NCBI RefSeq assembly: GCF_009834515.1
Contig: NZ_CP019426.1
Span: 2,903,501 to 2,967,500 of the forward strand
Length of the DNA stretch: 64,000 nt
Source: Pseudomonas sp. R84
Lineage (GTDB): Bacteria > Pseudomonadota > Gammaproteobacteria > Pseudomonadales > Pseudomonadaceae
Direction: 5' to 3'
Below the pieces are notes generated by a model. That model was given only the letters and a program-made list of their open reading frames with translations. It did not search any database and was not told the DNA's origin. Position 1 is the stretch's first letter. Each line of letters starts with the position of its first letter. Of the stretch, positions 60,924 through 62,070 are shown one piece after another. Position numbers and translations under genes: made by a program.

Positions 60924-61142
60924 TCAGCCTTTGTTCGCGTTTAGCTTGCGCAGTTCTTCGTAGGTCGCCGACTGGACGAACCAGAAGCCGGAAATGATGC
61001 ACCAGCACAGGGTGCCGGCCACGAAGATACCCAGTGCCGGGAGGAACCCGCTGGTGAAAATCGCGACGATAGCGACCAGCCAGATGAACGCCAGGGAGAG
61101 ATAGAGGACGGTGTTGTTGACGCTGATGACGAAGTCTTTCAC
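60924..61142 (-). CDS. Small two-helix membrane protein
   Basis: This 72-residue protein has two hydrophobic segments (VLYLSLAFIWLVAIVAIFTS and GIFVAGTLCWCIISGFWFV). I start at GTG 61142 because AAGGAA lies upstream at good spacing; the frame continues to 61199 without a ribosome binding site. The function is unknown. Confidence 0.68.
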   Translation of the reverse strand: MKDFVISVNNTVLYLSLAFIWLVAIVAIFTSGFLPALGIFVAGTLCWCIISGFWFVQSATYEELRKLNANKG

Positions 61143-61367
61143 GGGGCATATTCCTTGCAGGATGTAGAAAAATTCCCCCTCTCCGGGGGGCGAACGCATG
61201 CTATCACATTGCCTTCATGGTTCAAGGAAGGGGAACTTTTTGCCGGGTGGAATGGGGAAAGATTTATTTATCAGGCGACCGGTCGCTGCTCGACTAAAGC
61301 AGACACCCAATGCAATCTTGATCCCTTTGTGGCAGCAGCCAGAGACCCGCCACAAAGGGATTACCCA

Positions 61368-61730: not shown

Positions 61731-61769
61731 AGATGACACTCCTGGGAAACAATTGAGGAGCCATCACGA

Positions 61770-61937
61770 TTCGCTACCAAACGAAGGGTGGCGGCCATGC
61801 ACAGGTTGGTAGACCGGTCCAGGAACCCGGCGCGCCCGAGGACGCCCTACGCATGGCCACCATAAAACGGAGATCAAGAGGTACGATCTCTGAGAGAGGT
61901 GCGCGATGCGCCTGGAAATACCGGGCTACCAAACCCG
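61770..61937 (-). ncRNA. Candidate structured leader with two identical hairpin loops (DUF6124 upstream region)
   Basis: Two hairpins show the same 8-nt loop CTACCAAA on the plus strand: TTCG/CGAA at 61770-61785 and CGGG/CCCG at 61922-61937. Between them TTGGTAG (61806-61812) is complementary to seven loop bases, allowing alternative pairing. A stem GGTGG..CCATGC with GCATGGCCACC encloses the middle, and GAGATC/GATCTC follows. The DUF6124 ATG lies 40 nt beyond the first hairpin on the minus strand, so it is most likely a 5' leader, though orientation is not proven. Confidence 0.5.
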
Positions 61938-62070
61938 ATCACTGTTTTTCAGTGACCCGGAAACGATAAAACCCGCGCCCCAGACGCACAAGCCGGCGGA
62001 TTCTGGCGTAGTCGTAGGCAATGGCGCAAGACGTTGTAGCCTTGAGCCGGTAACGCGGCGTGTCTTTTAA
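61906..62070 (+). CDS. Possible 54-codon ORF opposite the structured leader (low support)
   Basis: ATG 61906 is preceded by GAGAGGT and opens 54 codons to TAA at 62068-62070 (starts MRLEIPGYQTRSLFFSDPE). It shares its DNA with the hairpin at 61922-61937. The structured RNA explains the conservation I would expect here as well or better, so this may be a chance frame. A 38-codon frame from 61853 overlaps it. Confidence 0.25.
   Translation: MRLEIPGYQTRSLFFSDPETIKPAPQTHKPADSGVVVGNGARRCSLEPVTRRVF

Follow-up and report, generated by a model that had tools for sequence, protein, structure and literature searches.

The structured leader upstream of a DUF6124 gene in the window, the 64,000-nt stretch of the Pseudomonas sp. 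R84 genome that we analyzed (NZ_CP019426.1, positions 2,903,501 to 2,967,500), is a C4 antisense RNA together with its target sites, an RNA that is already known. The genome holds a set of 36 such modules whose a and b keys are largely their own, and we consider it highly probable that they represent translational self-silencing by a processed C4, similar to that of the P1 immI operon and amplified here on the chromosome into a family whose members carry private keys; the pairing is read from sequence, and we infer the processing, the repression, and the role of the protein. In P1, the order of elements is a1b1, C4, a2b2, and gene, with the second pairing covering the first gene's ribosome-binding site.

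The RF01695 covariance model matches positions 61867-61784 with 78.8 bits (curated cut-off 45, E = 8.7e-15), and the minus-strand leader folds with a z-score of -3.69 relative to 200 dinucleotide shuffles, none of which scored as low. The minus strand is the functional strand, on which a promoter, a1b1, a hairpin, C4, a2b2, and the DUF6124 gene follow one another (Table 1), and the exposed loop therefore reads UUUGGUAG and the segment complementary to it CUACCAA. An earlier note on this DNA had described two hairpins sharing one loop (CTACCAAA in forward-strand letters, within an exact 10-nt repeat, GCTACCAAAC, at 61773 and 61925) and a segment, TTGGTAG, fitting either of them; all are present, the hairpins being the a2 and a1 target sites and the segment being a', complementary to both. 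The long stem and the GAGATC/GATCTC pairing that it listed were likewise located. A match to the c4-a1b1 model RF03163 at 61969-61918 falls just below the cut-off (45.6 vs 46.7 bits), with the orthologues L048 and L049 scoring 46.8, and a simple consensus scan for promoters picked up none. Following the rule used for Acinetobacter baumannii (PMC5320573), b' denotes whichever loop is complementary to the ribosome-binding site; this second pairing, with the Shine-Dalgarno sequence, was absent from the earlier note and is the most locus-specific part of the module.

Table 1. Features of the C4-DUF6124 module in the window, in order of transcription.
Feature	Position	Strand	Basis or remark
Upstream element CAGAATCCGCCGGCTTG	61989..62005	-	Common to 18 C4 units of the genome
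Probable promoter, TTGTGC (61986-61991), 17 nt, TATCGT (61963-61968)	61963..61991	-	By eye; position kept in syntenic copies
5' hairpin of the a1b1 part, TCACTG/CAGTGA	61939..61955	-	RF03163 match
a1 hairpin, loop UUUGGUAG, target of a'	61922..61937	-	Sequence, Rfam model, pairing comparison
b1 segment UUUCCAGG, complementary to b'	61911..61918	-	By eye
Terminator-like hairpin, GAGATC...GATCTC then CGUUUU, directly before C4	61870..61890	-	Terminator-like scan
C4 antisense RNA	61784..61867	-	RF01695, 78.8 bits, E 8.7e-15; covariation
b', loop of C4 stem P3, GUUCCUGGA; partners b2 and b1	61818..61826	-	Pairing comparison
a' (CUACCAA); partners a1 and a2	61806..61812	-	Pairing comparison
a2 hairpin, loop UUUGGUAG, target of a'	61770..61785	-	Sequence, pairing comparison
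b2, CCAGGA over the DUF6124 Shine-Dalgarno, target of b'	61740..61745	-	6 contiguous Watson-Crick pairs, -15 to -10 from ATG
DUF6124 gene, 120 aa	61368..61730	-	PF19619, 65.8 bits, cut-off 27

The 36 genome copies also bear out the three-stem C4 structure. Over the 26 pairs of the C4 part, 95.9% of cells are standard pairs (97.9% in P1, 96.1% in P2, and 89.4% in P3), compared with only 39-43% for slid versions of the same pairs. Seventeen pairs change on both sides, against a shuffled mean of 10.1 and with none of 500 shuffles as high; the C4 stems covary in these copies.

In the mechanism that we favor, which draws on the C4 model of P1/P7 (PMC5320573, PMC8198154, PMC12197685), the leader would be transcribed together with DUF6124 and C4 would then be excised from it, presumably by RNase P, which cuts C4 from its precursor in P1/P7 (PMC5320573). 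Free C4 would place a' on the a2 loop and b', the P3 loop, on the DUF6124 Shine-Dalgarno sequence, keeping translation off through repression that is probably exerted in trans. C4 could also bind the a1b1 element at the transcript's 5' end, and transcripts ending at the hairpin before C4 may yield a short a1b1 RNA that sequesters C4 and turns the gene on, much as IsrK does for anrP. On the P1/P7 precedent, C4 is expected to be excised and to affect ribosome binding in trans, and not to serve as a two-loop cis switch. The proposal that the region is a cis-regulatory leader of DUF6124 thus stands in part: it is structured, lies on the minus strand, and precedes most DUF6124 genes of the genome and those of 20 of 20 close relatives, but its action is expected, from P1/P7, to be in trans.

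C4 and the DUF6124 family are closely linked across the Pseudomonas sp. R84 genome (6.60 Mb, one contig), in which we found 36 C4 matches, 35 of them above the cut-off, along with 33 DUF6124 and three DUF3077 matches that occupy 35 separate places. For 31 of the 36 C4s, a DUF6124 or DUF3077 domain begins 87-230 nt beyond the C4 end on the same strand; counted from the protein side, a C4 accompanies 31 of the 35 domains. Four domains lack a C4 of their own. Judging by coordinates, one of them comes second in a tandem pair, and for the remaining three rechecking found no C4 in 7 kb. One DUF6124 gene without C4 directly precedes a PrrF small RNA (158 bits; L038:3620-4034). As for the five other C4s, two (L001 and L036) precede Bro-N antirepressor-like genes, the L001 protein also matching PHROG anti-repressors, and three (L026, L033, and L035) precede short proteins without a Pfam match. 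The distance from the C4 end to the ATG is 45-55 nt in 35 of the 36 units, L004 being the exception. By eye, an ATG 49 nt after the L004 C4 opens a 24-codon leader ORF, and the stop of this ORF shares the sequence ATGA with the start of DUF3077; this overlap resembles that of orf45 with anrP in Gifsy-1 (PMC4825925) and suggests that the two L004 reading frames may be translationally coupled in the same way.

To compare pairing within and between units, each P3 loop was set against the ribosome-binding region (-30 to +3) of every one of the 36 units and each a' against all a2 and a1 regions, with the longest Watson-Crick run as the measure and 20,000 permutations for significance. For b', the mean run was 7.28 with a unit's own region and 3.84 with others, and the own region was best (ties included) in 30 of 36 units and uniquely so in 24. 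The corresponding values were 7.14 and 4.16 for a'-a2 (25 best, 12 uniquely) and 7.47 and 5.03 for a'-a1 (20 best, nine uniquely), and when b' and a'-a2 were summed, 35 of 36 units fit their own target best (ties included), 33 uniquely, with L023, whose sum is higher for L027, as the sole exception. None of the 20,000 permutations reached the observed mean for b', a'-a2, a'-a1, or the sum. All 36 P3 loops differ, and the stretch they pair with sits between -21 and 0, in the ribosome-binding region, save in L030, where the longest run stays below four. Complementarity between the a core and a1 spans 6-11 nt in every unit; with a2 it spans 6-9 nt in 34 of 36. The shared loop was expected to be conserved before other DUF6124 genes, and there is no such single sequence: we grouped the loops of the 36 copies by hand into about 20 forms, each changing with its partner. 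Largely private keys in 36 modules would imply that the main silencer of each gene is the C4 of the same unit. The a' keys are partly held in common, with TTGGTAG occurring in nine units, so cross-talk through a is possible.

Duplex energies pointed the same way. Mean duplex energies with the own target exceeded all 10,000 permutations for each of a'-a1, a'-a2, b'-b1, and b'-b2, yet the own target was best in only 14, 6, 8, and 12 of the 36 units, respectively, on segments that contain stem bases. Nested co-folding did not bring out the C4 pairings, which speaks against the favored mechanism: it gained 1.2 kcal/mol for C4 with a2b2 and 2.2 for C4 with a1b1, less than the 6.6 for a1b1 with a2b2. 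Loop-loop pairing lies outside this folding model.

Private pairing is also seen beyond this genome. In a second genome of the genus (G009), 30 of 38 C4s were fetched, 22 of which have an ORF of at least 50 aa with its ATG 38-54 nt downstream, and 24 were usable once six without a loop or ATG had been dropped. Among these 24, which include two C4s without a proper gene there (L152 and L154), the b' run averaged 7.54 with the own region and 4.00 with others, the own region being best in 18 and no permutation of 20,000 reaching this mean. For 17 viral-contig loci with 13 distinct loops, picked from the internal ones among 74, the averages were 7.82 and 4.01, with the own region best in 16 of 17 and again none of 20,000 permutations as high.

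Comparison of a single chromosomal site across strains shows these keys changing. Flanking DNA places L048, L049, L050, L051, L054, L120, and L159 at the site of the window unit; L053 and L115, which have some flank in common with it, were left out of the syntenic comparison. At this site b', b1, and b2 occur in three types that change together, and in L054 and L120 the a sequence goes from TTGGTAG to TTAGTAG at once in a1, a', and a2. The b' loops of types 2 and 3 pair over 4 and 3 nt with the ribosome-binding region of the window but over 10-11 nt with their own, while window-type b' pairs over 6-7 nt with its own region but also over 6 nt with that of type 3. Protein identity to the window DUF6124 is 62% in L120 and 90-97% in the other syntenic copies, and dN/dS to the window copy is 0.04-0.14 among the six syntenic relatives used, L120 aside, rising to as much as 0.27 in pairs with L120; judged by these ratios, the DUF6124 protein at this site is under purifying selection. 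By eye, L054 looks recombinant, with the leader and N-terminus of one type and a remainder of window type. The neighboring gene is well matched in five other genomes of the genus, with C4 there in G019 (L159) and none found in the roughly 4 kb examined in each of the other four (L160-L163), and the unit is, on this comparison, gained or lost at the window site among genomes of the genus. Taken together, the anatomy, private pairing, joint change, and conserved geometry make the pairing logic well supported at the sequence level.

Two further features recur upstream of C4. A hairpin of varying sequence precedes it, with a mean fold z-score of -1.77 and values below -1 in 25 of 36 units, compared with a mean of -0.05 and six of 36 for a control region inside or after the ORF; it is a candidate terminator, with a loose rule giving terminator form in 19 of 36 units vs 21% of shuffles. 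The element CAGAATCCGCCGGCTT(G/A) has 18 copies in the genome (14 exact and four with one mismatch), all upstream of C4 units by coordinates, and allowing two mismatches adds four places, none before a C4 unit. A second element, TCAGGTTGTCCGTCGGACGT, has seven exact copies, all upstream of C4 units, and none with one to three mismatches. Reversed-pattern controls gave one match each (with up to two mismatches allowed for the CAGAATCCGCCGGCTTG element). Both CAGAATCCGCCGGCTTG and TCAGGTTGTCCGTCGGACGT contain CCGNCGG, and they are near-exclusive markers of 25 C4 units; elements bearing this motif possibly point to a dedicated regulator of C4 units.

The association extends to other genomes of the genus. 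C4 was found in 54 of 59 Pseudomonas genomes, that of the window included (median 17 copies, maximum 54), and DUF6124 in 47; the five genomes without C4 also lack DUF6124, and the two counts correlate with a Spearman coefficient of 0.88, a statistic that ignores relatedness. The closest named relatives of the window DUF6124 are from Pseudomonas, including P. fluorescens strains at 97-98% protein identity, and C4 lies just upstream in all 20 loci scanned, the 20 most similar of 80 DUF6124 loci from named genomes. In G009, tandem C4s (three at about 100-nt spacing) occur at C21:16214-16512 (L156 and its neighbors) and C58:321065-321620, some without a downstream gene, and these could be stand-alone antisense arrays. 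Across the class, C4 is present in at least 7 of 185 genomes, with at least one to three copies each outside the window genome; because the class search scores few candidates, recovering 22 of the 36 in the window genome, these counts are lower bounds.

Viral sequences carry the unit as well. All 17 viral-contig loci have a C4, which in 14 ends 46-54 nt before the matched gene and in L193, L197, and L198 lies more than 500 nt from the matched gene and 52-53 nt before another DUF6124-like ORF. In one viral contig (L204:3865-4360), a phage tail operon contains the C4-DUF6124 unit, flanked by the genes for tail fibre and tail sheath, indicating that phages can carry it as cargo. A plasmid search with DUF6124 returned no match, and a search of phage records returned one, at the edge of a prophage record adjoining prtR.

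Elsewhere in the class, C4 precedes other genes. In G156, a C4 at 1501-1583 of L245 lies 51 nt before a gene for a SymE-type toxin (PF08845, E 7.4e-13). Two further C4s of G156, in L242 and L246, precede similar 88-aa proteins, and scanning that of L242 gave a CsrA-like match below the cut-off; C4 is thus used with genes other than antirepressors. In the class a Bro-N gene is also found behind C4, and scans of three further class proteins behind C4 gave no match. The occurrence of C4 before SymE-type, Bro-N, and CsrA-like genes suggests that C4 leaders guard proteins that need to be off by default.

The DUF6124 protein itself is predicted to form a pair of long helices (pTM 0.48; pLDDT for residues 71-110 about 95-97), and the fold had no match in the PDB or viral library at E <= 0.001. 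PA2703, which we take to be the immunity protein Tsi2, gave a weak match (E 3.1) that we counted as no evidence of a structural relationship. DUF6124 had no match in PADLOC (defense) or NCBIfam (curated families), and against PHROGs reached only 0.074. Pfam scans of six neighboring genes assigned four to metabolic or membrane families and gave nothing for the other two; we rejected a prophage as the setting of the locus, the Pfam-matched near neighbors being non-phage genes. The adjoining small protein (60924-61199, minus strand) matches the phage family phrog_6140 (2.2e-11), a PHROG of unknown function. DUF6124 would most likely be a self-silenced effector carried by both phages and chromosomes, and a toxin-like or phage-linked role is plausible.

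One such reading is that DUF6124 and its relatives are the toxic small proteins of type I toxin-antitoxin systems with C4 as the antitoxin RNA, which we regard as possible but lean against. The antitoxin of a classical type I system is transcribed from a separate promoter, whereas C4, by arrangement, derives from the leader of the mRNA being silenced, and most type I toxins are shorter than DUF6124, a predicted helical protein of 120 aa that also lacks PADLOC and NCBIfam matches. On the other hand, a private silencing RNA does cover the ribosome-binding region, the G156 C4 stands before a SymE-type toxin gene, and cell division is inhibited by the P1 protein Icd, whose gene belongs to the C4-controlled operon (PMC8198154, PMC11897509).

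It is also conceivable, although we think it unlikely, that C4s confer superinfection immunity by silencing matching mRNAs of incoming phages, with DUF6124 as a passenger or decoy target. C4 is an immunity RNA in P1/P7 (PMC12197685), two units of the genome appear still to control Bro-N antirepressor-like genes, and DUF6124 units are present in viral contigs, one of them among tail genes. However, each C4, with one exception, best fits its own gene, and purifying selection at the window site argues that DUF6124 is no plain passenger.

A broader extension of self-silencing, which we find decidedly doubtful, is that the genus carries a set of addressable self-silenced effectors. Each unit would be a sensor with C4 as the lock, and any RNA with the same key, such as a phage transcript or another a1b1, would titrate it and free one DUF6124 or DUF3077 protein, the whole set forming an RNA-addressed phage-response system. 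Keys would stay private through joint change of C4 and ribosome-binding site, and recombination among paralogues and phages would exchange them. Dedicated promoter elements would be common to many units.

That the two loops form a switch or kissing loop acting only in cis, with a' on a1 or a2 within one molecule as the earlier note had it, now seems very improbable. It is true that a' fits a1 and a2 alike and that IsrK/anrP combines alternative cis structures with trans pairing (PMC4825925). In predicted folds, however, an outer stem of 17 bp closes C4 off as a domain, and pairing of b' with the ribosome-binding region, the most specific feature, would be superfluous for such a switch. Finally, we give almost no credence to the idea that these are decaying relics of phage immunity regions with no present function, since despite the phage-derived ancestry of C4 and its many copies, internal stops occur in none of 33 DUF6124 matches, dN/dS is 0.04-0.14 among syntenic copies other than L120, and pairing segments change jointly.

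If translational self-silencing by C4 is what these modules do, a single bacterial genome appears to operate about 30 antisense circuits of the same phage type in parallel and to keep them largely apart. Such natural, near-orthogonal translational switches would offer a test bed for the evolution of antisense specificity, in which whole pairing codes swap at one chromosomal site and the protein stays put. They may also open a way into DUF6124/DUF3077, a large family with no known function whose probable default silencing would, unless recognized, make it hard to study.

C4 and a1b1 RNAs have already been described (PMC2864571), so C4 itself is known; its coupling to DUF6124/DUF3077, and the scale of that coupling, were not found described in the openly accessible literature searched, and the search on DUF6124 or DUF3077 returned only a mention of a DUF3077 pseudogene. 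The C4 of P1/P7 (immI operon; RF01695, RF03163) belongs to the same RNA family and has the same order as the Pseudomonas module. In contrast to P1/P7, the Pseudomonas C4 sits on the chromosome among metabolic genes in up to 54 copies per genome, its gene is DUF6124/DUF3077 rather than icd/ant, and its key is largely private to each copy. The hallmark of a P1-type immI, an antirepressor downstream in a phage, is absent at the window and present in part at L001 and L036 (Bro-N).

Many C4-like copies also occur in A. baumannii AB5075, in which one genome encodes 21 group 1 C4-like sRNAs, six of them truncated, whose target segment varies and for which RNA-seq suggests C4 5'-end processing (PMC5320573). 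The targets proposed in that study are bacterial RNAs or incoming phages, whereas the Pseudomonas copies lie 45-55 nt before an ORF and their match to that ORF was tested here. In Gifsy-1, a leader RNA with a terminator is followed by read-through into a repressed gene, and IsrK activates anrP (PMC4825925); in Burkholderia cenocepacia, isrK with its terminator and C4 make up one transcriptional unit (PMC4603805). The Gifsy-1 gene is an antirepressor and that of the window is DUF6124, and the isrK model (RF01394) reaches only 32.6 bits in the window against a cut-off of 50. As in type I systems such as SymE/SymR, an antisense RNA covers the site where ribosomes bind the message for a small protein, but unlike in those systems, C4 is located in the leader of the very transcript being silenced.
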